From: Candidatus Ornithoclostridium excrementipullorum
GTDB taxonomy: Bacteria; Bacillota; Clostridia; Christensenellales; UBA3700
NCBI GenBank assembly: GCA_018716085.1
Contig: DVKK01000014.1
Location: 1-63,780 of the forward strand
DNA length: 63,780 nucleotides
Direction of reading: 5' to 3'
Positions 12,850-32,824 of the stretch are shown here, one piece after another (within the stretch, counting starts at the first letter, position 1; every line of letters begins with the position of its first letter). The notes below the pieces were generated by a model. The model was not told the origin of the DNA and did not search any database. It saw only the letters and a list, made by a program, of their open reading frames with translations. The position numbers and the translations under genes are program-made.

Positions 12850-15800
12850 TCATTCTTTGTCCTGCCCGCCGTCGTTCCCTTCCTGTTCGGTGTCTTTATC
12901 GTCGGAGGCTTCGTCCCTGCCGCCTTTTTCGCCGTCGTCGGGATCGTCGGGACCGTCATCGTCGCCGTCTTCCGCCTTTTGCCTGCGCTTCCTGACGGTC
13001 ACGTATACCGCCGTTCCAACCGCCGCGACCGCCGCTATCACGACAGATACGATCGCAACTACGTCGGCAGCGTTGCTTCCTCCTTCGGAAGAGCAAGCGG
13101 CGGCGTACTGTTCGTAAGAGCCGCGCACCGTCTCCTTGTCGGCGTCGTTGAGAGCGTTGTACAGCGCGGTTATCTCGTCATACTGCGCTATCTCGTCTTC
13201 GGTCAGCCCGTCTTCGAGCATTGCGTCTATCCTGCTCTTCAATACTGCCGGGTCGGCTGTGGTCGCCGTCTGCACGGTGTCGTACTTCTGCCTGTATTCC
13301 TGCCAGGCTATGTCGAACGTATACTCGGTCTGCGCTCTCAGGCTCTCCACCGTGAACGACGCAGTCGCGCCGGAAACGTTCTGCCATCTGCCGCCGTTTA
13401 TCCTGTAAGAATAGAGCCCTTCTTCCGCAAGCGTGAACGTGACCGATCCGGAAGACGCCGTGACGGAAACTATCTGCGGCGCGTTTTCGGGCATAACGGT
13501 CAGATCGCCCATGACGACGGTGCAATCGTAGTTGTCGTCGGAAGAGGAGAAGGCGACGCTCGCCGTAAACCAATCGCCGAGATCGTAATAGCCTTTCTCC
13601 AACGAAAGATCGTACTGTCCGGTAGCCGTAAGCCCTGTCACGGATACGGTATCCCCCGCGGGCAAAGTCCTGTCTGCGGAAGCCGTCGCGTCGGCGATCG
13701 TGGGCGCTCTGCCCTCGTCCGTAGCCGCAGATACCGTGACCGTCACTTCGAACGGGACGACGGTATAGACGACGCGCGCGGTGCCCGTGGCGTTGTTGCC
13801 GCTGACCGTGACGACGGCGGAATAAACTCCGACCCCCGCTCTGCGGATATCGGACACGGCGCCGCCCTGTCCGTCCGTATACGACACCTGAGCGGAATAT
13901 CCGGACGGGATCCTCGACAGATCGACGCCCGCCGAGCCGTATTCGCCCTCGGAATCGCTTACCCAAGTGGCTACGATCTCGTCTATACTTCCCTCTCTCA
14001 CGGTGAGCGTCACGCTCTCGTGACCTGCCGCAAGCCTGTAATTCGTATTATCGGACAGAAGCGCGCTCACGGTATATTCTCCCACGTCTGTCGGCGCGGA
14101 AGCAAGGAGCGCGTCTCCGACGCGGTATTGAGCGGTCGCGGTGACGTACTCGTCGCGGGTATCGACGGAAACTTCTCTGGGAAGGGTGTTGAACACCGTT
14201 TCGAGAACGCCGTCCTCCGCCTGTATTCCGTCTATCGAATAGACCGCATAGACGGGCTTGGGATCTACGGTCAGCGTGACCGCGATATCTCTTGCGGTAT
14301 AGTTGGCGCTGTCCACCGTTACCGTAAGGTCGTAGACGCCCGCGGAGACCGCGGTCCAATCGGCTGCGCCGTTCAAGGATACGGTGTATCCGACCGTTTC
14401 GCCGAACGCGCCCTCAACCGTCTGAGCTGCTTCCCAAAGATCGTCTGCCGTCACGCTCATGCCGTGATCGTATACGACGCGGACGTCGGGGAACAGTCCT
14501 TCGATCATCGCGTCGGTCACGGGAGCTTCCGTAATTTCGAGATAAAGAGCCCCGTTTTCGACCACGGTGATATTGCGCCTGTACGCGTCGCCGACTTCCA
14601 CGCTGGTATCGACGAAGACTCTGCCCGCGGCGTCGAACGTACCGTTGGCGTCGACGTTGACGTACACGTCGAACATCTCGGACAGATCTATCGTTTCGTC
14701 CAGATAGAGATCGTCGATGCTGTAATCGTAACCGAAGTTGGCGGCTACGTAATCCTGCACGCTCTGCCAATCGTCGGGCAGAACGCCGTATTCGACTGCG
14801 AGCCTGTCATAATCGACCGTCACGTAAAGCGGCAGGATGATCAGATACTGTTTGTCGTCGTCGAACCTGTATTCCTTGTCCGCATAGTTGGGATCGGACG
14901 AGGTAAATTCCGCGCAGAATATATAACTGCCCGCGTCGATCGGCGAAATATCCAGACCTGCGCCGTCCGTCACGCGGTTGCCGTCGGTATCTTCGTAATA
15001 GAATACGAATGTTCCCAGCCCATCGAGGACGACTTTCTTGCCGACCGCTTCGGGTCCGTAGGTATAATTCACGCCGTCCGCGCTCGTTATGCCGACGGTG
15101 AGGTCATGTCCCGCGCCTGTGTAATGGAACGCCATGTCTTCGTCGGGGTCGACCGCGAGCGACGGCGACGCCGCGCCGATAGTGAGCGTAGCGGTCATCG
15201 TATAGACGTAAGCCTCGTGTTCGGTGCCGTCGGCGTCGGTCCACATGCCCTCGGTCACGGCGGAGCCGCCGTTGTGCGCGCCGTTGTTCCTGTCGATATA
15301 CACCGTCATCTCCACGGTGTATACGCCCGCCGCCACCGCGTCTTCCACGGGCAGGGCTCCTTCGTCGGTATATTTGTAAACGACGTCATAGACTACGGCT
15401 TCCGCGTTGCCGGCAATGCCGGAAGCCTCGATCGTATGTCCGTCGGCGTCGTAAGTTACCTCGCTGTCGGCAAATCCGACCGCGCCCACGTCGAACGTGA
15501 GCCTCTGTACGGTCAGAGAGAATACTATTTCCCTGTCTTCGTAGTTTGCCATATCCGACAGAGTCACCGTAACGCTGTAAGCTCCCGCTTCCGTTACCTC
15601 GTAAGCGGTATCGCCGCCTGCGGAGGGCACGTACGCAAAGCTCTTGCTTGCGTCGACGGTCTCGCTGTTGATGCCGAGAACGTGTACCGTATCTGCCAAA
15701 GCCGCGCTCAGATCTGCGCCCGAATACGTCAGAGTCATGCCGCTGTCGAGCGGAGGATAGGTGGACAGCTCGTCGCCCGAAGCCTTTGCTACCGACAGCG

Positions 15801-18800
15801 TGACGCCCGTCCCGAAAAGATCTCCGTCCGCGGTATAGTTGCGATGATCGCCGAGGACCGCGTTGACGGTATATTCGCCTGCGTTCCTCACGGCGGAAAG
15901 ACTGCCGCCTTCGACGTCGTAGAACACGACCGAAAGGCTGCCTTCGAGCGCCGAGAATATCTCCGACGTGCTCTCGAACAGCTGATCTACCGTGACCGAC
16001 ACGTTGGAAGCGGAATACGTCCTTTCGATCGACTGTACCGCCGTGCCCAGATCGGCGCCTGTGACGGTCTTTTTGCCTATCGTGACGGTGCATACCGCCC
16101 TGTCGGCGGAATAGTTGGTGCCGCCGTATGTGATTATCGCGTAGTAGACGCCCGCGTTTTCGATATCGCCGAACGCTATCTCCGCGCCCGTAGCGCTGCC
16201 TTCGCGCCACACCACGTTGACCGCGCCGTCCGCGCTGTCGCCGTCGAGAGTGACGATCTGCGGCGTTATCTCGGATATCTCGTCGCCGTACGTATATTCC
16301 GCGCTGTCGGCGCCTGTGAACACGGTCTTGTAGGGAGCGACCGTAACGCGCACGGTGACCGCCGCGAGCGTATAATTGGTCTCTCCCGCGCCGAGCGCGA
16401 GTTCGATCGACCAATCTCCCGCGTTGCGCACGGTGACCGCCGCACCGTCGGATCCTACGATCTCGGGGACGCTCTCTCCCACGACGCCTTCAAACGAATA
16501 TATCGGTTCCCAGTCGCCTGCCGAATAGACGAGTTCGCTGCCCTCTACGGTCTGACTGCCGTCGCTCCATCCTGTCACCGAAACGGTTATGCGTCTAGGC
16601 GTGACCGTCAAGCCTCCGTCTTTGACGGTGATATCGTAATTCGAAGTCACGTCCTCGCCGTCGGTGATGAGAGCCTCGACGGCCACGTAATCGGACAACG
16701 TGTACCCGCCCGCGTCGAGCGAAGCGATGTCCGCCGCGAGCGAGAAGTTTACGGAAAGCCGATCTCCCGAAGCGAGAGTGCCTCCCGAGAGCGAATACGC
16801 GCCGCCCGTCATACCCGTCAGATCCGCCGAACCGTATACGACCGAAATATTGCCGACCGACAGAGTTATCGGTCTTTCCGTTACGTTGAGCCTACCGCTC
16901 GTATCCGCGTTGCGGACGGTGTAATTGTCGTTGGCGGAAGCGGAAACGGCGATGTCGTACCCTCCGACGGACAGCTTTCCCGTCTGAACGGAAAGCGTCG
17001 CCGATATCGCGGACGCCGAGGCGTAATCCGCCCAAAGTTCCGTCGCGTCCGCCGAGGTATAGACCCCGAATCCGGCAAAGACGACCGCGTCGCCGTAGAC
17101 CGCCTGCACGTCGTTGGCTTTGAGCCACACTTCGCGCGGCGTGACGGTAAGATCTCCCGCGTTCACCGTAACGGTATAGTTGGCAAGATCGTCGCCGTGC
17201 ATCTGCACGACTACTCCCGAAAGAGCGCCGCCGTGCAAGCCTACGGAAGCGAATCTGTCCGCGGATGACGTTACCGTAAGGTCTACGGTCACTCCGTCGC
17301 CGATCGCTACCCCTTTGCCGAGAGAAGACGTATCGAGCGCGTCTCCGTAGATCACGTCGGCGTCTCCCGCATCGACGGTCACCGCCTTGGGCGAAACGGT
17401 CACGTAAACTACGGAATTCATAGTTACGTCTTCGTGCGAAAGCGTATAGACCACTCTGAAAGATCCCGCGCCGTTAAGGGAATCGGTCTCCGCATAAGCG
17501 CCGTCCTCGCCGAGTTTTTCCCATACGTACGACAGCTCGGTCTCTTCGACCGGCGCATCTCCGTAAGTCGCGGTAGCCGTAGCCGCAAGCGCGCTGCCGA
17601 ATTCGTACACCGTCTCGGCGCTGCCCTGCGACGCGACCAGCGGCGAGCCGCCGTAAGTCACCTCTATGATTATCTCCGCGCCGACGACGTAAACGGTCAC
17701 CGTAACGGGATCGAACGTATAGTTGCCGGAGCCTCCCTCGTAAGAGAATACCGCGTCGAATCCGGACTCCGAACCTCCGTTGTATTCGAATGCGGTTATC
17801 TCCTGCGACGTATCGCCGATCGCGTAGAATTTCACGCCCATATCGACGTCGTCGAGATATTCTCCGCCCGCTCCGCGCAACGCGGCGTTGACGGAAGCGA
17901 GATAACTGCTCACGGTAAGCACGGGCGTATCGCCGCCTATCAACGACACGTACTGCTCGGTATCACCGACGAATTGCAGCGCGAACGGGTCTATCGTGAA
18001 TTCGATCGACCCCGAGAACGCGTTATAGTTTACGCTCTCGGCGAACGACACCGTAACGGTATATGTACCCGCGTCAGAAGCTCCGCCTTCGACGGGTTCT
18101 CCGTCGCTGTTTTTCACAACGATCTCGGGCGCGCCGTAAGTCGTATCGACAGCGCCCTCGACCCCGTACGCGGGAGTCTGTACGCCGCCGTCGTAAACGT
18201 ACTCCGCGAGCTCGTCGAAGCTCACCGAGGGAGTGAGCCTGTCTACCGTCCATGTATAGACCGCCTGCGCGCCGTTGTAGTTGGTCGTCTGTCCGAACGT
18301 AAGCGTGACGGTATATTGTCCCGCGTTCACTACGGCGGGAGCGGCTTCGCCGTCCTTTTCGTACGAAGCGGTCACCTGCGACGTGAAGTCGTCGGGATCC
18401 ATGCCCGCCGCCGAAAGCGTGAACTGCGGCGCCTGAGCCGTCCCCGTGTATTCGGTGACGTAAGCGTCGCCCGAGTTGAGAGTCGGCGCTATCGTGACGT
18501 CCGCTCTGTCCACGTTCATCGTCGTTTCGAACTGCGCTTCGGCGTAAGCCGAGCCCTCGGCGACGGTTATCTGCACATCGTAAACTCCCGCGTCGGTCGG
18601 AACTGCCTGCGCGTTGTTATAAGTCACGGAAACGCTGCCGATCAGCGAATCGTCCGCCTGCGCGCCTCCTACGCCGATGAGCGTGTAGACCACGTTCTTC
18701 TCCTGTCCGTCATACACGTACGGTTCTTCGGAGAACAGTACGTCAAGCTGAGCGCGCGTTATCTCGAAATCGCCGTTTACGACGGTGAGCACGTAATTGC

Positions 18801-21800
18801 CGCCCCTGTCGCCGCCTGCCTGCGCGGAAGCGGTGTAATTTCCCGGCAGGATCGGCTCGCGGCTCTCCGCGCCGACGCTGTAAGAAAGCTGCGCCGTGAC
18901 GCTTCCCGTATCGGAGGCGATCACGCCGGTATCTCCGTCCGAAGCCTCTTCTATCGTATATCCTTTCACCTTGCTCTGTCCGTCATAGACGTAGCTGTCG
19001 GCGAGATCGAGCGTCACGTCCGCCTGTCTGCGCTCTATCGTGACGGTGACCGTACCCGCGGCGAACATCTCGTCTCCGACCGTCACGGTCCCGAGCGTAT
19101 AGTTGGGAGCGGGCGTTATCCCTACGGTGTAGGTACCCGCGTCTACGGGCGAAGTCACGACGTCGCCCTCTTCGGGAGTGTACGTCAGAGTAAACGCGCT
19201 GTCGTCGCCCTGTACGAGCACACCCTGCGCCAATGTGAGCGCAGAGTCGTACGCGCTTCCGTTATAGACGCCCTGAACAAGTTCGAGAGAACCGTTTATC
19301 GGTCTCGCCGTTACGGTGAGCTTGCCCGACGACGGAGCGAACGTGTAGTCCGTAGCCGCGGTCGAAGGCGCGTCTTCTCTGACCGAAGCGGTCAGCGTAA
19401 GAACGTAATCCCCTACGGGCGATCTGAAATTGGCGGTCGTGGACACCGCCAAAGTAAAGAACTCGGCGTCGTCCCCGAAAAATTCGTCGGCAACTATGTA
19501 CGCCGCCATTTCGGAAGTGTTTATCGCGTCGCCGTAGACCGAAGTCCTGTCGGGGATAGAGAGCGACACTTCCGCCGCCGCCACGGAAAATTGCCGAGTT
19601 CCTCCGCTTTGCAGCGAATAGTTGTTTAGCAAAGACGCGTTAGTATGATTGGCTTGCACCGTCGCGGTATAACTGCCCGCATGCAGAGGCAGTCCCGCCG
19701 GATTGAGCAATCCCTGCGCCGCCGAATACGAGACCGTACTGCTCAACGACTGAGCGTCGTTGTTGCCAAGCTGAGAACCGGTCGCCACGTTGCCCAGAGA
19801 GTAAGTCGGCTGCTGTGCGGCGCCGTTGTAGACAAGGCTGTCGGCGCCGTTCCAGTTCACGGTCAGTTCCCGCGGAGCGACCGTGATGTTGACCGTATAG
19901 TCGTCCTTGAACGACAGATAGTAATAATTGCCGTTTTTGCTTATGAACCTGTTGCCCGACGGCGCGGTGAACGACATGACGTAACTGCCCGCGTTGCCTG
20001 CGCCTTCGTACCTGTAATTGCTCTGAGAATACGTTCTCTCGCCGCTGTCCGTCACGGTAGAGGTCGATCTCAGCGTGATATTCGACGAGCCGCCGAGCGC
20101 GCTGTCGAGTTCCGTTGCGGAGAATGATTCCGTTCTGCCCGTGTACGAAGCGTTGTAACCTGCGAATGCGGGCACGTACATATAGTCGCCGTTGTACGTG
20201 TAAGTATAAACCGATCCGGAGCCCGAATACGCGTCGGAGCGCTGAGAGGTCGTCGGATCGTTGTAGGCGCGCGACATATCGTAATCGATATAAAGCCATG
20301 AACCGTATGCCGCCTCAATCGTATACGACGCTCTGGGCAACATTTTGTCCCACAAGTTGGGATAATTGGTCGGGTCGACGGCGTTTCCGTCGTCTCCGAG
20401 TCCCATTTTCCCCGCGTCCTCTTTGACCATGTAGATATTTCCGCTTTGCGCCGTGTTGTACCCCGTATACATCACCGGGACGTAGACGTTCCCGCTCTTA
20501 TCGTAAGTTCTCGCCGCGACGTTGAAAACATCGTTTCCCTGGGTCACGGAATAGACGAATCTGTCCTCGCTCTGTCCGCTGTACCTGATATAAAGCGCGC
20601 GGTCGTTGTTTGTGTTGTTCGATATGCCTGCTCCCGACGCAGTGGAAGAGATGCCGCCCGCCTTCGCGAACGTTGCGTCCGAGCCGTTGGGAACCACGCT
20701 GTATACCCATTGATATCTGTACCAGTATGCGTTGCCCTTTCCCTGTTCCATCTGATCCTGATACTGGCTGTCGACCTCGTTGAGCGCCCACGGATGGGTC
20801 TTTTTGATGATATCCGCCGTGGCTTCGGAAACGTATATGTTGTTGAGAGAAACTCCCCCTATTCCCGCGGTCTCGGCGGCTCCTATCCCGTATGACGTCC
20901 TCATCATATAGCCTTCTCCGACGGTCGAATTCGTATAATTACCGGTGTTGTCGTTCACTATGCTGTCGCAAAGGCTTTTGAATCCCATGCCTCCCCACAT
21001 ACCGTTCCAGCCGTACATTCCGGAGTCTACGCTCCAATAACTGCGTATTCCTCCCGACCACACTCCGGATTCGCTGATCATGTATCCGCTTCCCCACGGA
21101 TTGTTGTCGCCGGAATTGGTGAGATACGTAAGATTTATGTACGCGCCGTTTACGGTAACCCCGCCGTGCGCGAAACCGACCAATCCGCCTGTATATTCGT
21201 CGACCGCTCCTCCGGACGTACTGTTGCTGATCAATGCGGCGTCGCCCGCCAAATAGCCTGCGCCCTGCACCGTGACCTTGTTGAGCGTAAGTCCTCCGTC
21301 GGTCTGTCCTACCAATCCTCCCGTGGCAACAAGCATCCAATAGTCGGTGTATGCTATCTTAGAACCGCTGTTAACGACGGCTCCGTCGTAATTTACCTCG
21401 GTGTTCGCTATCATTCCGCCGTTGCTCCATCCGGCAACGCCTCCGAAAAGAGCGTTCACGTTGACGGAAGACCATGCCCGAGCGACTCCCGGAACGTCCG
21501 CTCCGTTTGAAAACGCGAATCTGTCGCGGAAAGTTACGCTGCAATTATATATGACGCCGCCGTCAAGCGACCCCGCGATCCCTCCGATATTTTTCGTCAT
21601 GGTGCCTGACGCGTTTGCGCCTTCTATACTCGGACCGAAATACGTCCAGCTTCCGGAAGCGCCGGTAATAACAACGTTTACGTCCCTTATGGTTCCGGTC
21701 AGTCTTTTGACCAGAAAGCCGTAGTCTCCGCCCGCCGACCATGGATATGTGGATCTACTGGCAACCGCTATCGTGACGGTATATCCGTTGCCGTACAGAG

Positions 21801-22170
21801 TCCCTGAAAATACGCCGTCCACCGCGGAAGTCCCCAACGCCGTCATAGCGTCCATCGTTATATCGCGCGTCAGATAGTACTGTCCGCCTCCGGACAATGC
21901 GTTGCTCAAACCGTTCGCGTCCGATACGGCGGTTCCCTGAGTGACGCGGTCCGAAACTTCACCGGGCGAACTTATGTCCGTATAGACCTGATAATCATAT
22001 CTGTTGTCGCCTATATTCATATTCGCCGCAGCAACTGCCGTCGCTCCGTCGCCGGATACGACCGTGCCGCCGCCGCTTTCCGCCTGCGGGAAAAATATCC
22101 CCGCCGCGACGAGCGCGACAAGCGCAAGCGCGATCACGATCAAACCGATACCTTTCTTTGTTCTGCTCAT
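12850..22170 (-). CDS. Giant MBG-repeat surface protein with C-terminal membrane anchor
   Basis: 3106 residues. N-terminal hydrophobic signal segment (about 7-28, no lipobox). Residues about 60-700 contain GLUG/beta-helix-like stretches (GGIAGSLDGGVIYNCSV, FGGVAGWSNGGMIANTEV, GGLVGQTDGGLTLNKV, GGLVGFAHGGVTVN). From about 760 to 2810 there is a long tandem array of MBG/YDG domains of about 70-85 residues, roughly two dozen by eye, with signatures such as YVYDGQSKVKGY, VIYGDALDTSSL, YNGAAQQPTYSL and AGTYTVTVSF. An FN3-like domain (about 2895-2960), a short helical segment and one membrane helix (about 3033-3057, ADVVAIVSVVIAAVAAVGTAVYVTV) with RKRRQK and an acidic tail end the protein. There is no LPXTG motif, so anchoring is by the helix. 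It follows the 3346-residue gene by 25 bases (SD AGGGAG). Confidence 0.93.
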   Translation of the reverse strand: MSRTKKGIGLIVIALALVALVAAGIFFPQAESGGGTVVSGDGATAVAAANMNIGDNRYDYQVYTDISSPGEVSDRVTQGTAVSDANGLSNALSGGGQYYLTRDITMDAMTALGTSAVDGVFSGTLYGNGYTVTIAVASRSTYPWSAGGDYGFLVKRLTGTIRDVNVVITGASGSWTYFGPSIEGANASGTMTKNIGGIAGSLDGGVIYNCSVTFRDRFAFSNGADVPGVARAWSSVNVNALFGGVAGWSNGGMIANTEVNYDGAVVNSGSKIAYTDYWMLVATGGLVGQTDGGLTLNKVTVQGAGYLAGDAALISNSTSGGAVDEYTGGLVGFAHGGVTVNGAYINLTYLTNSGDNNPWGSGYMISESGVWSGGIRSYWSVDSGMYGWNGMWGGMGFKSLCDSIVNDNTGNYTNSTVGEGYMMRTSYGIGAAETAGIGGVSLNNIYVSEATADIIKKTHPWALNEVDSQYQDQMEQGKGNAYWYRYQWVYSVVPNGSDATFAKAGGISSTASGAGISNNTNNDRALYIRYSGQSEDRFVYSVTQGNDVFNVAARTYDKSGNVYVPVMYTGYNTAQSGNIYMVKEDAGKMGLGDDGNAVDPTNYPNLWDKMLPRASYTIEAAYGSWLYIDYDMSRAYNDPTTSQRSDAYSGSGSVYTYTYNGDYMYVPAFAGYNASYTGRTESFSATELDSALGGSSNITLRSTSTVTDSGERTYSQSNYRYEGAGNAGSYVMSFTAPSGNRFISKNGNYYYLSFKDDYTVNITVAPRELTVNWNGADSLVYNGAAQQPTYSLGNVATGSQLGNNDAQSLSSTVSYSAAQGLLNPAGLPLHAGSYTATVQANHTNASLLNNYSLQSGGTRQFSVAAAEVSLSIPDRTSVYGDAINTSEMAAYIVADEFFGDDAEFFTLAVSTTANFRSPVGDYVLTLTASVREDAPSTAATDYTFAPSSGKLTVTARPINGSLELVQGVYNGSAYDSALTLAQGVLVQGDDSAFTLTYTPEEGDVVTSPVDAGTYTVGITPAPNYTLGTVTVGDEMFAAGTVTVTIERRQADVTLDLADSYVYDGQSKVKGYTIEEASDGDTGVIASDTGSVTAQLSYSVGAESREPILPGNYTASAQAGGDRGGNYVLTVVNGDFEITRAQLDVLFSEEPYVYDGQEKNVVYTLIGVGGAQADDSLIGSVSVTYNNAQAVPTDAGVYDVQITVAEGSAYAEAQFETTMNVDRADVTIAPTLNSGDAYVTEYTGTAQAPQFTLSAAGMDPDDFTSQVTASYEKDGEAAPAVVNAGQYTVTLTFGQTTNYNGAQAVYTWTVDRLTPSVSFDELAEYVYDGGVQTPAYGVEGAVDTTYGAPEIVVKNSDGEPVEGGASDAGTYTVTVSFAESVNYNAFSGSIEFTIDPFALQFVGDTEQYVSLIGGDTPVLTVSSYLASVNAALRGAGGEYLDDVDMGVKFYAIGDTSQEITAFEYNGGSESGFDAVFSYEGGSGNYTFDPVTVTVYVVGAEIIIEVTYGGSPLVASQGSAETVYEFGSALAATATATYGDAPVEETELSYVWEKLGEDGAYAETDSLNGAGSFRVVYTLSHEDVTMNSVVYVTVSPKAVTVDAGDADVIYGDALDTSSLGKGVAIGDGVTVDLTVTSSADRFASVGLHGGALSGVVVQMHGDDLANYTVTVNAGDLTVTPREVWLKANDVQAVYGDAVVFAGFGVYTSADATELWADYASASAISATLSVQTGKLSVGGYDIAVSASANDNYTVRNADTSGRLNVTERPITLSVGNISVVYGSADLTGMTGGAYSLSGGTLASGDRLSVNFSLAADIASLDAGGYTLSDYVAVEALITDGEDVTSNYDITVKDGGLTVTPRRITVSVTGWSDGSQTVEGSELVYSAGDWEPIYSFEGVVGESVPEIVGSDGAAVTVRNAGDWSIELALGAGETNYTLAAVTVRVTVAPYKTVFTGADSAEYTYGDEISEITPQIVTLDGDSADGAVNVVWREGSATGAEIAFGDIENAGVYYAIITYGGTNYSADRAVCTVTIGKKTVTGADLGTAVQSIERTYSASNVSVTVDQLFESTSEIFSALEGSLSVVFYDVEGGSLSAVRNAGEYTVNAVLGDHRNYTADGDLFGTGVTLSVAKASGDELSTYPPLDSGMTLTYSGADLSAALADTVHVLGINSETVDASKSFAYVPSAGGDTAYEVTEAGAYSVTVTLSDMANYEDREIVFSLTVQRLTFDVGAVGFADSEVTYDADGHTIEASGIAGNAEAVVYDVVYKYTDEGALPVEDAVAAGVYTVEMTVYIDRNNGAHNGGSAVTEGMWTDADGTEHEAYVYTMTATLTIGAASPSLAVDPDEDMAFHYTGAGHDLTVGITSADGVNYTYGPEAVGKKVVLDGLGTFVFYYEDTDGNRVTDGAGLDISPIDAGSYIFCAEFTSSDPNYADKEYRFDDDKQYLIILPLYVTVDYDRLAVEYGVLPDDWQSVQDYVAANFGYDYSIDDLYLDETIDLSEMFDVYVNVDANGTFDAAGRVFVDTSVEVGDAYRRNITVVENGALYLEITEAPVTDAMIEGLFPDVRVVYDHGMSVTADDLWEAAQTVEGAFGETVGYTVSLNGAADWTAVSAGVYDLTVTVDSANYTARDIAVTLTVDPKPVYAVYSIDGIQAEDGVLETVFNTLPREVSVDTRDEYVTATAQYRVGDALLASAPTDVGEYTVSALLSDNTNYRLAAGHESVTLTVREGSIDEIVATWVSDSEGEYGSAGVDLSRIPSGYSAQVSYTDGQGGAVSDIRRAGVGVYSAVVTVSGNNATGTARVVYTVVPFEVTVTVSAATDEGRAPTIADATASADRTLPAGDTVSVTGLTATGQYDLSLEKGYYDLGDWFTASVAFSSSDDNYDCTVVMGDLTVMPENAPQIVSVTASSGSVTFTLAEEGLYSYRINGGRWQNVSGATASFTVESLRAQTEYTFDIAWQEYRQKYDTVQTATTADPAVLKSRIDAMLEDGLTEDEIAQYDEITALYNALNDADKETVRGSYEQYAAACSSEGGSNAADVVAIVSVVIAAVAAVGTAVYVTVRKRRQKAEDGDDDGPDDPDDGEKGGRDEASDDKDTEQEGNDGGQDKE

Positions 22171-22195: not shown

Positions 22196-25100
22196 TCATA
22201 TCACCTGCACGGCGAATGCCTGCAGGAAATCGTACTGCGACGGATAAGCCGCAAGTCTGCCGTGAGTATCTCTCATATCCACGTCGATGCCGATATAGAC
22301 GTATGCCCGTCCTCCGCGGGTCTCTCCCACGAATATCGGCAGTTCGGTTTCGTAACCGTTGCCGAACACCACCCACGCCGTGAGAGGCCTTTCGCCCGCT
22401 TCCAGCCACGTGCGCGCATGATCCGCGTCGAAATACATCGTTTCGACGATATTGCGCTCCACGACTACGTCGAGAGCGGTCCTCTCGTCGAAATACCCGC
22501 CGCCGGTATATCCCGTCCCGTCGAGCTTCGCGATCAACGCTCCATCGAACGAACCTCCCTTATAGCCGAAGTCTACTCCGCTGAGTTCGGGCGAGAGCGT
22601 CAGCCTTTCGGTCGTGCCGTCGGAATAGACTGCGGTGCCCGCCGTCGGGATCGGACTGTCCGCGGCATTGCCGGACACGAGATATTTATAATACGCATAC
22701 GGATCGACGCGCCATATATCGGCAGAGCTCTGACCGTCGAGCGTGAGCGAAGTCTTGTCCTTGCCCGCGATCGAGATCGTCAGCGTGACCGTCTGCACGA
22801 GCCCGCTCTCCACCGATTCCGCGCTGCCGTCCTCGGCGATGCGCTTGTCGAACGTGACTGTAACGTCTATCTCCGCCGCGGAAAGATCGGCGGGGTCTCT
22901 GTTTATCAGCGCGTCCAGAGCGCTCATGTCCCAGTCCGCCGCGTCGGTGACCTCGGACGGAATGAACGTGCCGTCGCCGTACAGCATCGTGAACATATCC
23001 AACAGCTGCTGCCGCGCCGACTCCTTGTCGGAGAAGTCGAGGTCGTACCAATCGAGCGTCACCGTCTGATCCTCTATCGCGCTGTCGCGGTAGTTTATCG
23101 TCACGGGATAACGGCTTCCGTTGGCGAATTGCAGATATGCGGTCACGCTTCCTCCGCTTACGCTCGGAGCGGAATAGCTGCCGGTGAGCCGCACCGAAGA
23201 ACCGTCGATACGGTAAGTCATCGTGCCGCCGTAAGTCTGTACCGTAACGGATCTGGGAACGGTTTCGTAGATATGCAGCGAGATCGGATCCACGCTCCTT
23301 ATAGCATACTGTCCCGTACCGCTGATCCTGTACACGTCGAACGTGATATTCTGCGTACGCCTTCCGCTGGGGAACTGCGCCGAAGCCGTGATGGTATGCG
23401 TGCCCTCCCTGTCCATCAGGGAGCGCAGTACGTCGCGGGTGAACGCGCTGCCGTTGTACGTCAGCGACACCGTCGCGCGCTCGACCGACGAGCCCTGCTG
23501 ATAGACGGCGTAATCCACTCCCGCGAAGTACCTGTTCCAGTACTCGGTCGCCGCGTTATTCTTGCCCGCGGTATCGTAAAGGTACGGGTTGAACGAAATA
23601 TCGGTCGCCATGTTGCCCCAGTCCACTATGCCGGAAGTACCGCTCGGCGAATAGGCGGGGTTGCCCACAGACTCGGACTTGTTGTATATCCATATCTCGT
23701 TGGAATAGGATATCTGCGAGTAGTTCTTGTTGTATTCGCCGTAACCGTAAGTCGCGTCTACGCCTCCGGCGGCATAATACGCATATCCCGTACGGAACAG
23801 CAATCCCCTGCCTCCGTAATTGTGCGACGGTCCGTTGTTGCCGTATTCATAGGTATAGTAATACGCTCCCTGTTGGTCCGTGGCTCCGCTGATATCGTAC
23901 AAAGACCTGACGGTCTGCCTGAGCTTCTGCCCCGTATCGTACCACTCTCCGCTCTGATCCTGCGCGTAGCGCGTGACCGCGGCGCCCGTATCCTTGCCTA
24001 TGAACGATATGTTCGTCACCGTGCCCTCGATCACGTTCACGTTGAGCTGCGCCTCGTTGAACACCGCAAAGGACGTTATGCGTTTGAATACCGAATGGAA
24101 CTTTTCCGTAGTTCCCTGCCAGTTTATTGCTCCGAGCAGCCACGAGATATTTCCGTAACCGATCTTAGGCAGCACGTCTCTGATTATTCCTTGCAGATTT
24201 GTCTGTATGCTGTCCCACGTGCTGTAAGGCGTGCCGCCGTTTGCGGCATTGCGGGTATTGCTGCCCGCTATCCTGTCCCACCACATATATTGCAGATGGT
24301 TGCGCGAGAACAGGTTCGTCCCGTTCATCTGCATCGTGGACAGATCGATCATGCTCTCGTAGCCGAATATACTGCTCATGAGATCGTCGATCAGCTTGTT
24401 GAGCACATACGGATCGAGCCCTACGTTGAGGTTGGTCAGTCCGTTGCTGTATACGTTGAGCGTGACGCCGGGACGCAGGAGTTCGTTTATATCCAGTTCC
24501 GCAAGCGCGGTATCCAGTCTGCTCGGCTGCGACGCCGGCTGTTCGGGATCTTCGGGTGTGCCCGGGTCGGACGGCGAGCCCTGCTCCCCCGACACCGCCG
24601 CGATGAGGTCGTCCGCAAGCTTCCCGAGCGGAGTAAGCAGATCCAACTCGAAAGAAGCGCTGGACAACAGGCTCGCCACGTCGATCTGGATATCCAGCAT
24701 CGCTCTTATGACCAGCCAGCCTTCGCACAGGTAAAGCGTAGCGGATCTGTTCGCATAATCGATATATACGTGCATTATCGCGCTGCGCGTCCCCGACCCG
24801 TGCGAGTTATATTCGGCGGCGCTGACGTCGTACATACTGATCAAAATGCCCGATCCGTCGGCGCTGCCCGCCGTCGAAGCGTGATTGTCCAATCTCACGA
24901 CTCCGCTGACTTTGCTTATCGTTATCCTCGTGTAGGTAGTGCCCACGGAGCTGTCCACCAGCGTACCGACGGTGCCGCTCAGAAGATCGAGCGAGAATTC
25001 GAAATCGAATCCGTTGAGGAAATCCACTACCGCCTGTTCTCCGAGAGTTCTGCCGTCGGGCGGCGTCGATACGAGATCGAGCACCGTATATCCGTCGGCG

Positions 25101-28100
25101 TTGCCGGGGATAAAGCTCGCGGGGGCGTCTCCCACCGTCATGACGAGATCGAACTGCGCCTTGTCGTCGATATTGATGCTGCCGCTCAGCGTATTGCCCG
25201 CTATCGAACCGCCTGCGTGCGCCTCGATCACGAAATCGGTATTCGCTCCGAGCATCTCGAACAGCGCGGACATGATCTCGTCGGTAAACGCTATCATCAG
25301 CTCGCTGTCCTCTATCCTTACGGCGGATATGATGTAGCGGATAAGGTCGTTCGCGTTCGCCGCCAAAGCGTCGGTCTCTCCGTCGGAAGGCGCAGACGGT
25401 TCCTCGGCAGAGGCGTTCGGCAGTTCTTCCGCCGCGTCGGACGAGAAGAAGTCCGCAATGAGTTCCGAAAAATCTATATCGTCGATGCCCGCTATCGCGT
25501 CTTCGATCGCTCCGAACAACATATCGCCCAATTCGCTGCCTTCGACTTTGAGATCCACCAATCCCACTCCCGACAGACTGATATAAAGGTCGCTGTCCTC
25601 CATATACAGACCGACGAGGGTCTTGTTCTGCGCGCTGCCTTTGAGCACGATCTCGGCGAGCAGTTCGCGCGATCCGAGATCCCACGCGACGTTGAGCGCA
25701 AGGTCGAAATCGAGATCGTCGAAGTTGAGATTGAGCGGGAATCCGAGATCGAGCCCCGTGCCCGACACCAACCCCGATATAAGGCTCATTATATCCACGG
25801 TGCCGGCGTTCGCGCCGAATTCTATATCCATATACAGCGACTTGGATCCGAAAAGATCCTTGAGCGCCTGAACAAGGCTGTCGCCGTAAGCCGAATATTT
25901 GCGCTCTATTTCGGCGAGTTTGTTTTCCAGAGCGGTCAGATCCTGACCGAACGAGAGAGCGTCGTCCGCGACCGACAGCGAGAGGAAGAAGTCTGACGGC
26001 GCGCCTCCTGTCTGCGACAGAAGTTCGCCCCCGACCGACAGACGTATACCGTCCGCCACGGTCACGTTCGCAACGAGTTCGGGCAGCGTTATACCGCCGA
26101 GATCCACCGATACTCCGAAATCGCCCAAAAGCGCGAGTACGGCGTCCAGCGCGACGGTGACGGCAAGCCCGTTTTCGGTTATGCCTATCTCTATCCCGCC
26201 GTCGGCTGCCGACGTCGGCAGCATGACCGTCTGAGCCCGAGCCGCGTCCGCTCCGAGTTCGGCGACCGTAAGCACGGCGGGTTCGTCCTGCGACGGACGC
26301 ATCTCGCGCAGTTTGTCGATAAGCGCGCCGATGAGGTCGAAATCTATTTTGAACACCGGCATGCTCAGTCCGTAAACTCCTATGCCGCTCGCGTCCACAT
26401 ACATCGCGCCGCGATACGAGTACAGCCCCAACAGAACGGTCCCGTCGGTATATACGGTATCCGCTCCGACCGAAACGTCGCCGTCGGCTTTCAGCTCTAC
26501 CGACAGCATGGAGTCCTTGTCTCCCGCGGTCGCGGTATCGTCGTAATAGGTCTTGAGATTTACATCGAGAGCGAGCGAAACGTTCGTGTCGCGGGTGAAC
26601 GTCCACAGCAGATCCGCTCCCGCGAGTTGGGTCAGCCCGAAGCCCGCGAGCAGATCGGCAACGTCGTATTCGCCCGCAGAGAAGCCCAGTTCTATGCCGG
26701 CGGTGAAAGATATGTCCGCGATGTCGTCGAGCAACGCGCGGAAAACGCCGTCCATAGTCGAAGCGTTCACGCTGTACGCGCTCAGAGTGAATTTTGCGGG
26801 GATATAAGCGGAACTCACTATCGTCTTCTGTTGCAAGGACGTGTCTACCGTAACGGTTATCGTCTTGCCGAACAGACTGCCGTCGAAAGTGATCGTGCCG
26901 TCGAATATGCCCAGATCGGCGGACAGGTCGAGCAGATCGTCCGCAAGGTCTATCTCTCCTCCCGTAGCGGCGGCAAGCACGCTTTCGAGCAATTCGACCG
27001 ACAGCGCCAACCTTATATTGGAATTTTCGAGAGTGAGCGCGCCGAGAAGCTGACCTATCCACGTCGTTTCCGCGGCGGGCAGCTCTTCTCCGCCCGTGTC
27101 GCCCGCGAGAGCCAGCGCTCCCTGAGCGTTCGCGGAGCCGCCGAGCAGTCCGCCCAATATCTCGCTCAGATCCAGTCCGCGCAGATTGCCCAGCGCGTCG
27201 CCTATCGCGGCGGTGATATCGTCTATCAGCGCGACTTCGGACAGCCTGATACGCACCAGTCCCACGCCCGTGAGATCCACGAGCAGTTCCCCTTTATAAA
27301 GATATATACCTATCAATATGTTGCCGCCGTTCATGACTTCCGCCATCAGCGATATTTCGGCGGTGGTCGGATTCATCTGCCATTGCATACGCAGACGGAG
27401 CTGTTTCGAGAAAGTCTCCGCGCTGACGTTTACGGGCACGGACAGCTGCGTGTTTTCCGTAACGGCGCGCAGTATCGAATTGACCGTTTCGGTCAGGGCG
27501 TAGCTGCCCTCTTCGAACGACGCGTCTATCGCTATGTCGAGCGATCCCGTGAACAGAGAATTGGCGAATCCTTCGAGAAGATCGGAATAAGTCTGCCCGA
27601 AGCCCTGCACTCTCGAGGAAAGTTCTTCCTTCAGCGTGCCGTGCAGCGTTTCGTCGCCTATGACCGCGTCCGCGCTGTCGAGCGCAAGCTCTATGCGCAT
27701 ATCGGACGGCTCGCCGTTCGTCTGCGACAGCAGATCGCCCTCCGCGCTCAGACCGACCCCGAAGCCGTTTTCCGTCTTGCCCGCGCTCAGTCCCACGGTC
27801 ACCCCGTCAAGCGCCGACAGAGCCTGTATGACGGACTCGGCGGAGCCGCCTTGCAGGAATTTTCCGAGAAGCGAGGATATCACGCCCATGGAAACGGAAG
27901 CTTCGAGCTGTCCTTCGGAATAAACGAGCGACACGGTATCGGACGGGGCGGTCGCAAGAGGTCTGCTCGCCCCTTGCTCCGCCGACTGCACGGCGGCGGT
28001 GCCCAGAAGTCCGTCGAGAGCGTTTTCCAAAGAATCGTAGATAAACGTACCCAGGTCGAAGTTTTCCGCTCTGAACACGGGCAAAGTCAGTCCGAGCAGT

Positions 28101-31100
28101 TTCAGTCCGCTCGCGTCTATATAAAGATCACGTTCGTAGACGTACAGTCCGAGGAGAGTTTCTCCCTGACGGAACAGCACGGTATTCTCCCCGCCCGCGA
28201 CCGAGCCGAAACCGATATCCCGAGCGGCTTTCAGTGCGAACGATATCACGCTGTCCGCGCTGTCGCCTCCCGTTATCGCGGCGGAAAGTTCGATATCGAA
28301 AGCCAGCGACGGCTCTCCGAATATCAACGCTACGGAAGCGTCCTCGGGCAGTCCCAACGACCCGAGATCGACGAATTTTCCCACAAGTTCGAGAACGTCG
28401 TATTCGCCGGCGGCGAAGTCGGCGCTCAACGTCGCCTTGACGGACAGTCCTTCGAGCAGTCCGAGCAGATATTCCTTTACGTCCTCCGCGTCGGAGAAAT
28501 AAACGAGTCCGTCGCGCGAAAGTTCGTCCGTATATTTCTGCGCGAGCGCGGACAGATCGTCGCCGCCGTCCCACGCAACGCCCAAGCCGTCGAGTTTGCC
28601 TTGCAGCCAGCTCTCGGCAGCGGGACCGTCGGCGGGCAAAGTCTCGCCGAAAGCCCCGACCAAAGCGGCAGCGAACGCCAGATCCTGCGCGTCCGCGTCC
28701 GTCTTCGCTATCGCGAGCGACACGTCCAGCACGAGTTCGTCGTCCCCGACGGAAACGGATACGTCCGCACTGCCACCGAAAATATCGACGGTCGCGTCCG
28801 CGGAGAGGAAATCGACCTCTGCCCCCAGAGCGGCGAATATGCCCGACATCAACTGCGAGTCGAGAGCCGCGCTTATCACGAGCCCGTCTATGCTGACTCC
28901 GCCGAGCAGCGCAAGCACGATATCCGTCGGATCCTGTGCCGAAGGCTGCTGCGGATCGGACGGGTCCGACGGCTGCGTATCGGGAGCCGCGCCCGAATTG
29001 CCGCCCGAGGAAGCCCCCGGCAGTATGCCGGCAAGTATCTCGGACAGATCCGTTCCCTCTATCCTGTCGACAGCCTGTTCCACCGCCTCGGCGATCGAAG
29101 TCGGGATTCCGGTATCTCTCAATATGAAATCGCCTATACCGCTCACGGTCGCCACTACGTTCTCGCCGTAGACGCGTGCCGAAACGAGCGGCGTACGGTT
29201 ATCCCCGTCGCGGGAATACAGTCCCACCGAATATCTGTCGGCAGCCTTGTCGAGAGCGACTTCGAGTTCCAGATCTATATCGTCCAGGGACAGAGTCACG
29301 TCCGTGCCGTCAGGCAGATATTCCGACAGAAGTCCTTCTATGTACGCGCCTATATCGGCGCCCTGCTGCGAGGTCAGCGCAAGCCGCGCCGAAACGGTCA
29401 TTTGACCGACGTAATCGAGCAGCAGACGCATCAGATCGGAGCTCGCGTCGGTAAGCCCCGCGGTCTTTTCGGCGACTGCCGCGCGTATCTCCGCCTGCAA
29501 GCCCGCGACGCCCGTCCGCACGTCGTCCGCCGCGATATCCAAAGTCAGCGCCGCGCCCAGAGCGTCGTATTGCCCCGAAGTCGCTATCGTCGCTCCCGCA
29601 TTTACGGAAATACCGTCCTCGCCTATCCGCACGCCGAGCTGTCCTTCAAGCCCCTCGGGCAGGGAGAGTTCCACTCCGAATGCGTTCAGCATGGCGGCGA
29701 CCGCCTGAAGCGTAAGCTGCGCCTGCAAACCTTCGGAATCGAGAATAACGGCGGCGCCCTCCGCCGAAAGCAGAGAATCCGCGCTCAGCGGAGCCGAAGA
29801 GCCGTCGGCGTTCATGAGAGCGAGCGCCGCGGCGGTATCTCCGCCCCCGAACAGTCCGTTCGCGTCGACGGTAAGATACGTGTCCACCGCGGCATAAAGC
29901 GCGGCGACGAGTTCGCTTGCCGCAAAGTCTGCCGCGGCTCCCGGCAGAGCCGCTCCGAACAGCTCTATCCCCGAAAGATCCAGCCACAGTTTGTCGGACA
30001 TCGCGTATATGCCGATCAGTTTGCCTGCGTCCGCAAGGACCGTGCCTCCGACCTCAACGGGAGAATTAAGGATCAGTTCCGCCTGCGCGGTAAAAGCGTT
30101 CGTGACCGGATCCATGGACACGTCCGCCGACAAAACGGCGTCGACGACGATATCTTCTTCGAGCGTCCACACCGTCGAAGACGTGCTTTGAAGCCCGAAA
30201 AGCGATAACAGGTCGGCAATATCGTACTCTCCCGCTTTTATCGTCAGCCCGACCGACGCGTCTGCGGAAACGCCTGAAAGAAGCGACGCGACCAGTTCTT
30301 TTACCGAATAAGTATATTTGCTCTCGTCGCCTATCTTTTCGGCGATATAATCCTCTATGTCGTCATAGCCCTCTTCCGACGGGCGCTCTCCCAATTCGAA
30401 GCCCGTGAAAGAGAGATCGGCTCTCACTCCGTGCAGATCGGCGGCAAGATCGACCGTCGTTCCCGAGTCGTCCACGGTCACGTTGAGCGCGACCGTACCG
30501 AAATCGGGAACGGAAAGCGCCGAACCGAACGAAGCGGCAAGCGCGCGTATGAATGCGTTGTCGATATTCAGCGTAAGTCTGTCGTAAGTATCGCCGTGTT
30601 CGAGGATGACCTTGTCCCCGCTGACGCCGAATACGCCGAACACGGCTTGCAGGAAATTGTGCAATCCGTCCGACACGTAGTAATCGCCGTTCTCGCTCTG
30701 CGAAAGCGCCAGCACGCCCGCCGCTTCGAACGGCGCGGCATCCGTGATCCTGAGCGCCTGAGTGCCGAGTACGCCGTCGAGCGCGCCGTGCACGAGATCT
30801 TTGACTCCCGCGACCAATCTGTCCAGAGCGATCTCCACCTTGATGCCCTTGCCTCCGTAGACGGGACCGAGCGCGGCGGCGACGTCTATCCAAAGCGCGC
30901 CGTCCTTATAATACGCCCCGATAAACGGCTGCGCCGTGCCGTCCGCGGCATAGGAGTCTATCTCCGCCATTATCAGATTGTTATCACCGCTTTCGGACTG
31001 CGCTATGTCTATCGCGGTCTTGAGCGTGAGCCTGTACCCGAGCGCGCTGTCAAGGGTCAGCAACCCCGCGGGAACGGTATTCTTACCCGTAAGAGCGTTG

Positions 31101-32236
31101 ATCAACGCGCCGAGATCCGCGCCGTCGTTGTTGACCGTAAAGTCGGCGCTCAGCGATATGTTGCCGAGGGATATCGGCACGTATCCCGTTATTTCGTCGG
31201 GAACTATGTTCTGCGCGCCGCCCGTAACGGACGCCTCCTGCGTGGTGAACGTAAATACTCTCTCGTCGGCGGTATCTCCCGTCGCCGCAAGCGACGTGAT
31301 CGTCCCGCTCGCGTCGTCTATCGTCGTTTTGAGCACTATATCGATATCGGGCAGTATCTGAAACAGCCAGTCAAGCAGCGACTGCACGCTGATATTCAGC
31401 CCCGCCTGAGCAAGCAGAGAATCGAGATTGACGAGATTGAGAATGGAAGATATCGACCTGAGTCCGACAGGATTGATATTTACGGTCCAGACTGTCTGCC
31501 CGTCCGCCGACATCTTCGTCGTCTTCGCGAACATATCGAATACCATGTCCAGCAGCGTCGTCACGGGAAGTCCCGCAACGGAAAGATCTCCCAAAGCGTT
31601 GCCGGCAAGCTCGGGTATCGCCGTTACTGCCGAAAGCAGATAGTCGAGGTCGAAGTCCGCCAACGCGACTCCGCCCAATTCCGGCGTATATATATAGAAT
31701 ACGTTGTCTTTGATATAAAGCCCGAGACTGCGGGAAGTTTCGTCGGAAAGTTCGAAAGCTATCTCGTATTTCTGTCTGTTTTCGATGTTCGCTTTAAGCG
31801 ACAGATACGTGCGCTCTCCCGCGGAATTCGTCCCCGTTCCGCCGAAAGCGAAGGAATAAGTTTCACCCGCGGCAAGCGACGAAACGATCGCCGAGACCGC
31901 GTCCAACGTGGTGGCGTTGCCCGAACGCTGCCAGTTGGGCTTCAGCGTAACGCTGCGGTTGACCTTATATATGCCCTTGTGGCTTCCCGGCCAGCCGTCG
32001 CTCCACGTATCGAACGTGTAGCCCTGGCGCAGAGGTATGTACTCCCCGAGATCGATCTCCGATCCCCTGGCGACGGTGAACGTCATCTCGGTCTTGCCGC
32101 CTATCGTGCCGCCGTCGAAGTCCAACGTTACGTCGACGTATTCGGAACACGCCGTGAACACGACTCCCGACAGCGCCGCGGCGATCATGACCGCGACCAC
32201 GGTCAGCGCAACGATCGTCCTCTTTCTCTTTCCCAT
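22196..32236 (-). CDS. Giant lipoprotein of tandem ~280-residue modules
   Basis: 3346 residues. Lipoprotein signal MGKRKRTIVALTVV...VFTAC (Cys 30), then one InlB-type repeat (about 33-103). The bulk is a tandem array: the segment L(I/L)G(L/I)Y-x5-7-(L/M)(Y/W)(V/I)D-x-SG recurs at about residues 167, 437, 739, 1000, 1357, 1640, 1932, 2205 and in degenerate form near 2462, a spacing of about 260-360. Two versions alternate: one continues GLxxPVF (739, 1357, 1932), the other D(L/F)SEIL-x-G-x-L (1000, 1640, 2205). Linkers are Ser/Pro/Asp-rich. Each module alternates amphipathic strands and helices, including GEYDVADLLAGFG-type segments. The last 700 residues are different and beta-rich, without an anchor. 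I do not recognise the module family. It heads the operon. Confidence 0.9.
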   Translation of the reverse strand: MGKRKRTIVALTVVAVMIAAALSGVVFTACSEYVDVTLDFDGGTIGGKTEMTFTVARGSEIDLGEYIPLRQGYTFDTWSDGWPGSHKGIYKVNRSVTLKPNWQRSGNATTLDAVSAIVSSLAAGETYSFAFGGTGTNSAGERTYLSLKANIENRQKYEIAFELSDETSRSLGLYIKDNVFYIYTPELGGVALADFDLDYLLSAVTAIPELAGNALGDLSVAGLPVTTLLDMVFDMFAKTTKMSADGQTVWTVNINPVGLRSISSILNLVNLDSLLAQAGLNISVQSLLDWLFQILPDIDIVLKTTIDDASGTITSLAATGDTADERVFTFTTQEASVTGGAQNIVPDEITGYVPISLGNISLSADFTVNNDGADLGALINALTGKNTVPAGLLTLDSALGYRLTLKTAIDIAQSESGDNNLIMAEIDSYAADGTAQPFIGAYYKDGALWIDVAAALGPVYGGKGIKVEIALDRLVAGVKDLVHGALDGVLGTQALRITDAAPFEAAGVLALSQSENGDYYVSDGLHNFLQAVFGVFGVSGDKVILEHGDTYDRLTLNIDNAFIRALAASFGSALSVPDFGTVALNVTVDDSGTTVDLAADLHGVRADLSFTGFELGERPSEEGYDDIEDYIAEKIGDESKYTYSVKELVASLLSGVSADASVGLTIKAGEYDIADLLSLFGLQSTSSTVWTLEEDIVVDAVLSADVSMDPVTNAFTAQAELILNSPVEVGGTVLADAGKLIGIYAMSDKLWLDLSGIELFGAALPGAAADFAASELVAALYAAVDTYLTVDANGLFGGGDTAAALALMNADGSSAPLSADSLLSAEGAAVILDSEGLQAQLTLQAVAAMLNAFGVELSLPEGLEGQLGVRIGEDGISVNAGATIATSGQYDALGAALTLDIAADDVRTGVAGLQAEIRAAVAEKTAGLTDASSDLMRLLLDYVGQMTVSARLALTSQQGADIGAYIEGLLSEYLPDGTDVTLSLDDIDLELEVALDKAADRYSVGLYSRDGDNRTPLVSARVYGENVVATVSGIGDFILRDTGIPTSIAEAVEQAVDRIEGTDLSEILAGILPGASSGGNSGAAPDTQPSDPSDPQQPSAQDPTDIVLALLGGVSIDGLVISAALDSQLMSGIFAALGAEVDFLSADATVDIFGGSADVSVSVGDDELVLDVSLAIAKTDADAQDLAFAAALVGAFGETLPADGPAAESWLQGKLDGLGVAWDGGDDLSALAQKYTDELSRDGLVYFSDAEDVKEYLLGLLEGLSVKATLSADFAAGEYDVLELVGKFVDLGSLGLPEDASVALIFGEPSLAFDIELSAAITGGDSADSVISFALKAARDIGFGSVAGGENTVLFRQGETLLGLYVYERDLYIDASGLKLLGLTLPVFRAENFDLGTFIYDSLENALDGLLGTAAVQSAEQGASRPLATAPSDTVSLVYSEGQLEASVSMGVISSLLGKFLQGGSAESVIQALSALDGVTVGLSAGKTENGFGVGLSAEGDLLSQTNGEPSDMRIELALDSADAVIGDETLHGTLKEELSSRVQGFGQTYSDLLEGFANSLFTGSLDIAIDASFEEGSYALTETVNSILRAVTENTQLSVPVNVSAETFSKQLRLRMQWQMNPTTAEISLMAEVMNGGNILIGIYLYKGELLVDLTGVGLVRIRLSEVALIDDITAAIGDALGNLRGLDLSEILGGLLGGSANAQGALALAGDTGGEELPAAETTWIGQLLGALTLENSNIRLALSVELLESVLAAATGGEIDLADDLLDLSADLGIFDGTITFDGSLFGKTITVTVDTSLQQKTIVSSAYIPAKFTLSAYSVNASTMDGVFRALLDDIADISFTAGIELGFSAGEYDVADLLAGFGLTQLAGADLLWTFTRDTNVSLALDVNLKTYYDDTATAGDKDSMLSVELKADGDVSVGADTVYTDGTVLLGLYSYRGAMYVDASGIGVYGLSMPVFKIDFDLIGALIDKLREMRPSQDEPAVLTVAELGADAARAQTVMLPTSAADGGIEIGITENGLAVTVALDAVLALLGDFGVSVDLGGITLPELVANVTVADGIRLSVGGELLSQTGGAPSDFFLSLSVADDALSFGQDLTALENKLAEIERKYSAYGDSLVQALKDLFGSKSLYMDIEFGANAGTVDIMSLISGLVSGTGLDLGFPLNLNFDDLDFDLALNVAWDLGSRELLAEIVLKGSAQNKTLVGLYMEDSDLYISLSGVGLVDLKVEGSELGDMLFGAIEDAIAGIDDIDFSELIADFFSSDAAEELPNASAEEPSAPSDGETDALAANANDLIRYIISAVRIEDSELMIAFTDEIMSALFEMLGANTDFVIEAHAGGSIAGNTLSGSINIDDKAQFDLVMTVGDAPASFIPGNADGYTVLDLVSTPPDGRTLGEQAVVDFLNGFDFEFSLDLLSGTVGTLVDSSVGTTYTRITISKVSGVVRLDNHASTAGSADGSGILISMYDVSAAEYNSHGSGTRSAIMHVYIDYANRSATLYLCEGWLVIRAMLDIQIDVASLLSSASFELDLLTPLGKLADDLIAAVSGEQGSPSDPGTPEDPEQPASQPSRLDTALAELDINELLRPGVTLNVYSNGLTNLNVGLDPYVLNKLIDDLMSSIFGYESMIDLSTMQMNGTNLFSRNHLQYMWWDRIAGSNTRNAANGGTPYSTWDSIQTNLQGIIRDVLPKIGYGNISWLLGAINWQGTTEKFHSVFKRITSFAVFNEAQLNVNVIEGTVTNISFIGKDTGAAVTRYAQDQSGEWYDTGQKLRQTVRSLYDISGATDQQGAYYYTYEYGNNGPSHNYGGRGLLFRTGYAYYAAGGVDATYGYGEYNKNYSQISYSNEIWIYNKSESVGNPAYSPSGTSGIVDWGNMATDISFNPYLYDTAGKNNAATEYWNRYFAGVDYAVYQQGSSVERATVSLTYNGSAFTRDVLRSLMDREGTHTITASAQFPSGRRTQNITFDVYRISGTGQYAIRSVDPISLHIYETVPRSVTVQTYGGTMTYRIDGSSVRLTGSYSAPSVSGGSVTAYLQFANGSRYPVTINYRDSAIEDQTVTLDWYDLDFSDKESARQQLLDMFTMLYGDGTFIPSEVTDAADWDMSALDALINRDPADLSAAEIDVTVTFDKRIAEDGSAESVESGLVQTVTLTISIAGKDKTSLTLDGQSSADIWRVDPYAYYKYLVSGNAADSPIPTAGTAVYSDGTTERLTLSPELSGVDFGYKGGSFDGALIAKLDGTGYTGGGYFDERTALDVVVERNIVETMYFDADHARTWLEAGERPLTAWVVFGNGYETELPIFVGETRGGRAYVYIGIDVDMRDTHGRLAAYPSQYDFLQAFAVQVI

Positions 32237-32288: not shown

Positions 32289-32318
32289 ATTGTATCATTA
32301 TCCCGCCTGTCGTGTCAA
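32289..32318 (-). promoter_or_regulatory. Promoter of the giant surface-protein operon
   Basis: Minus-strand TTGACA (32313-32318) and TACAAT (32289-32294), 18-base spacer; the leader would be about 45 bases before ATG 32236. Confidence 0.75.
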
Positions 32319-32794: not shown

Positions 32795-32824
32795 AATTGC
32801 ATATTTAAAATTCGGGAGGAGATC

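Follow-up and report, generated by a model that had tools for sequence, protein, structure and literature searches.

One gene in the stretch of DNA analysed here (the window, 63,780 nucleotides), from an uncultured gut bacterium of the genus Candidatus Ornithoclostridium, order Christensenellales, encodes a protein of 3346 amino acids, and raises the question of which units a protein of this size is built from and what it would do at the cell surface. A preliminary description made from the DNA letters had presented it as a giant lipoprotein of about nine modules in alternating A/B order, with no named domain and a possible resemblance to lipid- or hydrophobe-binding half-barrels. The features assigned to the locus are collected in Table 1.

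The lipoprotein and its modules

Table 1. Features of the lipoprotein locus (positions in the window; residues of the lipoprotein)
Feature	Position	Strand	Basis
Giant lipoprotein gene	22196..32236	-	Open reading frame, 3346 aa; full-length orthologues
Lipoprotein signal peptide, lipobox VVFTA-C30 at its end	32147..32236	-	Sequence; Cys conserved in relatives
N-terminal segment like the Listeria-Bacteroides repeat (Flg_new), residues 36-102	31931..32131	-	PF09479, below cut-off
Module 1, class 1, residues 114-325	31262..31897	-	HMM 72 bits; clade with paralogue module 1
Module 2, class 2, residues 357-604	30425..31168	-	HMM 108 bits; clade 100/99
Module 3, class A, residues 651-916	29489..30286	-	HMM 137 bits; A clade 100/98
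Module 4, class B, residues 940-1185	28682..29419	-	HMM 104 bits; B clade 93/90
Module 5, class A, residues 1260-1533	27638..28459	-	HMM 121 bits; A clade
Module 6, class B, residues 1560-1792	26861..27559	-	HMM 165 bits; B clade
Module 7, class A, residues 1836-2104	25925..26731	-	HMM 151 bits; model matches LolA/RseB/EPD
Module 8, class B, residues 2127-2376	25109..25858	-	HMM 151 bits; model matches LolA/EPD/LprG
Module 9, degenerate, residues 2383-2630	24347..25090	-	HMM 11 bits; hhalign
C-terminal region, residues 2631-3346	22196..24346	-	Ig-like by eye
Promoter-like site TTGACA-18-TACAAT	32289..32318	-	11 of 12 matches; 53 nt 5' of start codon
Partner gene, 3106-aa surface protein with MBG-like repeats	12850..22170	-	Starts 25 nt past the lipoprotein stop
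C-terminal transmembrane segment of the partner, then charged tail	12994..13062	-	Sequence

The protein is a lipoprotein, as had been claimed. A hydrophobic N-terminal signal peptide is followed by the lipobox Cys30, one of only two cysteines in the sequence, and this residue is conserved throughout the family: in the full-length orthologues (3356-3415 aa, 41-60% identity to the window protein), in the paralogues and in relatives of 7-12.5 thousand residues. Position -3 of the lipobox is occupied by Phe, which is unusual; the relatives have ordinary lipoboxes (LAAC, LTAC, VIGC, FAAC). Behind the signal peptide, residues 36-80 match Flg_new with an E value of 8.5e-4 and 19.8 bits, below the gathering score of 27. 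A Pfam scan of the C-terminal region gave zero domains; the residues around its start (about 2590-2692) are 39% conserved in a relative of 7109 aa.

The modular organization is evident from a self dot-plot, a check proposed in the preliminary description. The predicted off-diagonals are present, the best window scoring 93 against 42-52 in shuffled sequences, and they are strong at about 270-300 residues and at 566-626 residues, the latter being the measured length of the A-B super-repeat that had been estimated at about 550-620. When a joint HMM of the modules was iterated over the homologues, it detected exactly nine modules in the window protein and 0 in the reversed proteins used as control. 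The nine are spaced by 243-320 aa and separated by gaps of 6-74 aa, and eight of them are strong (72-165 bits). The count of nine modules is thereby borne out; the first eight are solid, while the ninth is degenerate, scoring 11 bits here and 11-34 bits in the orthologues, and aligning with modules 4 and 8 at an hhalign probability of 67-78%. Each of the nine motif positions originally listed lies in a different module. The LLGLY..LYIDxSG segment itself recurs across the modules, but it is exact in three copies only and degenerate elsewhere.

Position-specific profiles of the nine modules, derived from nine orthologues, were compared mutually and with those of four-module paralogues; reversed profiles, used as control, reached a top score of 31. 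Modules 3, 5 and 7 match one another and module 3 of the paralogues (138-252), modules 4, 6 and 8 match one another and paralogue module 4 (81-174), and the first two modules match the first two of the paralogues. In a tree of 68 modules each class forms one branch (support 99/95 for class 1, 100/99 for class 2, 100/98 for A and 93/90 for B). The alternation described at the outset is thus correct for modules 3-8, which fall into separate A and B clades, but not for modules 1 and 2, which constitute two other classes. Since these two classes are common to the four-module paralogues, the simplest account of the sequences is an ancestral 1-2-A-B array whose A-B pair was triplicated on the branch leading to the window protein. 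DNA-level tandem repeats were looked for and none is left, so the duplication of modules is old.

Sequence novelty and predicted fold of the module

Searches of Pfam, NCBIfam and the PDB sequences, with the whole protein, an A-B pair and a single module as queries, gave zero matches above cut-off for the modules, and 104 modules run against Pfam and NCBIfam likewise gave none. In Pfam, neither the whole protein nor the modules matched the AsmA, TamB or chorein families, and no sequence similarity was found to any member family of the LolA-like superfamily. When the LolA family was searched across the phylum, one genome exceeded the cut-off, without any link to the modules. Kinship with DUF6612, sought in proteins from 196 genomes of the class and from the relatives, was discarded, as hhalign gave at most 2%, which is noise level and equal to the reversed control. 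Hence, the statement that no named domain is recognizable holds at the level of sequence, where Pfam, NCBIfam and PDB are silent. No description of such an architecture was found in the literature searched.

The structure of the modules was predicted with two AlphaFold models. The first covers two modules (residues 1828-2415, 26-sequence alignment, pLDDT 64), and its pTM of 0.54 means that the relative placement of the modules is not reliable. The second, of module 8 alone, is based on the alignment of 104 modules (pLDDT 74, pTM 0.63, core blocks above 85) and runs from an N-terminal helix through a long strand, a helix, four to five strands and two to three amphipathic helices to another four to five strands. 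The strands and the helices that cover them are amphipathic, with moments up to about twice those of shuffled sequences. When the single-module model was compared by VIA-align, 47 of 50 rows belonged, by manual count, to the LolA-like superfamily (LolA, LolB, RseB/MucB, LprG/LppX, DUF1329, DUF1849, Csa1 and ependymin), the remaining three being CpeS, OmpG and TodX. The top match was EPD-BCP1 (Z 8.2, 145 residues, 5.1 Å), and Z was 7.6 for LolA (4ki3), 7.4 for LolB, 7.2 for EPDR1, 6.4 for RseB, 6.1 for LprG (LprG-PIM) and 5.7 for LppX; values of 7-8 are also typical of models without a true relative and, for an isolated hit, may be due to chance, and the pLDDT of the modules is 64-74. Foldseek placed SAOUHSC_02783 first (probability 0.99), with LprG at 0.90-0.94 and Csa1 also high; its TM-scores were at most 0.43 despite these probabilities. 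In the two-module model the neighbours were LolA, RseB and EPD for the A module, LprG and LprF for the B module. Transferrin-binding protein B and porins, which appeared in the Foldseek list of that model, superposed poorly over the whole chain (rmsd above 25 Å) and were therefore not taken as relatives.

Because two models and two types of module converge on one superfamily, the modules likely adopt, as predicted, the LolA-like half-barrel fold, an incomplete barrel of about 10-11 antiparallel strands covered by helices on its concave side; with Z values of 7-8 and silent sequence profiles, the assignment is likely rather than proven. The early guess of a half-barrel for lipids or hydrophobes thus has the structural neighbours of both AlphaFold models on its side and no support from the sequence methods. 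The suggestion of an undescribed structural family is narrowed: the family is undescribed in sequence, but its fold is probably already known.

Partner gene, cell envelope and distribution

The protein encoded downstream of the lipoprotein has many matches to MBG/Ig-like repeats, all below threshold, and a very acidic tail. At all readable loci of the same family a large ORF on the same strand, with its own signal peptide, lies 1-19 nt downstream of the lipoprotein gene; one same-family partner ORF overlaps that gene by 8 nt. This partner is absent from the DNA adjoining the inspected giants of other families. Several genomes of the same genus (loci L031, L032 and L033) have two or three separate lipoprotein-partner pairs: beside the long lipoprotein there are four-module paralogues, one or two in number, and every one of these lipoproteins retains its own partner gene. 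The partner of one paralogue (L034:889-7161, minus strand) carries a weak match to a double zinc ribbon (E 0.02) directly before its C-terminal transmembrane segment, which is odd for a surface protein.

On the upstream side of the lipoprotein gene, an ABC exporter pair was considered as functional partner and rejected, being common to the nearest species only. Between the exporter pair and the lipoprotein lies a divergent gene for a 198-aa membrane protein (32824-33417, plus strand), with 47% identity in the nearest species and not seen at other orthologous loci. No conserved gene of lipid synthesis or lipid transport was found near the lipoprotein loci. Elsewhere in the window, a 21-aa ORF (33652-33717, minus strand; MRYWHTFREYVKHYGLYIRLW) is flanked by a promoter of its own, a strong ribosome site (GGAGGTGA) and a terminator hairpin. 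A single similar match is present in each of 11 of the 13 genomes of the genus, e.g. MKFMRTFAKYVRHYGLYIKLW; several are weak (E up to about 0.04) and the gene neighbourhoods differ in some. The ORF is possibly a small-peptide gene that has not been described before. The window also encodes a BspA-type leucine-rich-repeat protein with a Listeria-Bacteroides repeat (2183-3238, minus strand; Pfam LRR_5 and Flg_new), a large 917-aa surface-type protein with a GLUG motif (56290-59043, minus strand) and the genes of an Rnf-type electron transport complex (6948-12102, plus strand; matches to RnfC, RnfD, RnfG-like and RnfB-like), ordinary for the group.

Omp85 is absent from 21 genomes, those of the window and 20 relatives, and present in 7 of 14 control genomes. 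A diderm envelope was discarded on this basis, and the host is likely a monoderm with a single membrane. Taken with the conserved lipobox, the absence of Omp85 would place the lipoprotein on the outer face of that membrane.

A plain query of two pairs hit 33 of the 59 related genomes, comprising almost every genome of the same family and none from the other families sampled. The A-B pair profile reached further, to 61 of 347 genomes of the order with four other families included, often in ORFs of 5,000-12,531 aa. The module was not found outside Christensenellales in 391 genomes of the class and 348 of the phylum, nor in the viral contigs searched. The proposed search for the module in other Clostridia therefore revealed it as widespread in Christensenellales, and in larger proteins, but not in other orders of Clostridia or Bacillota. 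Four giants of other families, fully read, have 12,531, 11,348, 9,415 and 9,199 aa and 13-15 detectable modules each, and two proteins from a different genus of the window's own family, 7,109 and 7,250 aa long, contain 14-16 modules; each of the six begins with a lipoprotein signal. The largest gene of the module family spans 37.6 kb, and its 12,531-aa product is almost without Pfam domains in the parts scanned. The lipoprotein genes of 9,199-12,531 codons (e.g. G164:C50:12609-50201) sit in genomes of about 1.5-1.9 Mb (G164, G103, G187 and G036), and the modules cover only part of the length of their products. The lipoprotein family is real, conserved, novel in sequence and unusually large, with a fold that is probably known.

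Possible roles of the module array

Proteins of the LolA-like superfamily hold hydrophobic molecules in their concave face. LprG accommodates triacylglyceride in a hydrophobic cleft and carries it from one membrane to another (PMC4709180), MucB is a U-shaped half-barrel with a large hydrophobic cavity (PMC7400510), and ependymins combine the LolA fold with a hydrophobic pocket (PMC6363788, PMC6608618). Taking this together with the amphipathic strands and helices of the modules, we propose, with a little less than even confidence, that the window protein is a surface-tethered string of nine LolA/LprG/ependymin-like half-barrel cups that bind hydrophobic molecules. In the model, the host would be a monoderm gut bacterium, and the lipid anchor would hold the protein on the outer side of its cytoplasmic membrane. 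Each module would form a half-barrel with amphipathic helices packed over its concave face, and each cup would accommodate one hydrophobic ligand (a lipid, an acylated compound, a bile acid, a carotenoid or similar). Arranged next to one another across the wall, the many cups would capture, buffer or pass on such ligands between the membrane and the surface, and the co-encoded giant MBG-type membrane protein would serve as surface partner or outer scaffold. The giant relatives, of up to 12,531 aa, may similarly form chains of cell-surface binding sites for greasy molecules.

The modules are like LolA, LolB and RseB-MucB in their predicted antiparallel half-barrel with helices on the concave face and in a match that extends over the whole module; those proteins, however, are single domains of the Gram-negative periplasm or outer membrane, whereas the window protein has nine in tandem in a monoderm lipoprotein, without detectable sequence similarity to them. 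Mycobacterial LprG and LppX share the lipid anchor and the predicted half-barrel, and LprG is a carrier that takes up and hands on triacylated lipids (PMC4709180), but they are one-domain proteins of about 200 aa encoded beside an MFS pump (Rv1410) instead of an MBG-type partner. The ependymin-related EPDR1 and EPD-BCP1, which include the best VIA-align match, are secreted animal proteins of one domain. Staphylococcal Csa1 and SAOUHSC_02783, with the top Foldseek match among them, are Gram-positive lipoproteins with genes in tandem; they are small single-domain proteins and have no sequence match to the modules.

The strongest rival to binding cups is a spacer or adhesin stalk, in which the modules, their ancestral ligand binding lost, would be rigid units that lift the C-terminal region through the wall, differences in length arising by spacer duplication. 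A stalk would agree with a module number that varies from 4 to 15 or more across the family, with duplication of the A-B pair as a unit, with a long MBG-type surface protein as co-encoded partner, and with array-end residues (about 2590-2692) that outdo many modules in conservation between genera. However, within one genus the nine modules and the length of 3346-3415 aa are fixed at only 41-60% identity, the four classes are distinct and keep their order across genera, which a pure spacer would not need, and the amphipathic helices are retained across the modules. The fixed number and order of distinct classes at such identity argue against a mere spacer, although not strongly, and we consider the stalk unlikely while giving it real weight. 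An improbable alternative is a new fold, the likeness to LolA reflecting a common combination of antiparallel sheet and helices in modules with an unrelated role, e.g. glycan binding; Z values near the background and the absence of sequence support would fit this, but the neighbours of both models converge on one superfamily with alignments spanning the whole module, and porins and lipocalin-like proteins are a minority among them.

AsmA/TamB and VPS13 are alike only in the general concept, an extended hydrophobic path assembled from repeated beta units, and differ in having another module and topology and no sequence match, no second membrane having been found in the window host. A bridge-like conduit working as they do with a different module, its half-barrels joined edge to edge into one continuous groove carrying lipids across the wall, would suit the nearly linker-free tandem array, the membrane tether at one end and the length of the largest relatives, but is improbable given that Omp85 is absent and there is no second membrane to feed, that AsmA and TamB gave no match, and that the geometry between modules in the two-module model is not reliable.

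Returning to the string of cups, it is rather doubtful, but conceivable, that these proteins represent a new class of giant monoderm lipoproteins, fixed in Christensenellales, whose LolA-like cups, 4 to 15 or more per protein and built from a module other than that of AsmA/TamB/VPS13, form a multivalent hydrophobe-binding or lipid-conducting array spanning the wall. Throughout this order of gut bacteria, genomes of only 1.4-2 Mb retain giant genes of 7-38 kb whose main module is nameless in the databases. The module profile provides a route to annotating some of the largest uncharacterized proteins of Christensenellales, and a single module, of about 250 aa, is short enough for direct expression and lipid analysis. 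Should the modules prove to bind lipids, gut bacteria with a single membrane would possess surface machinery that deals with hydrophobic molecules, among them bile compounds and lipids from the host or the diet.
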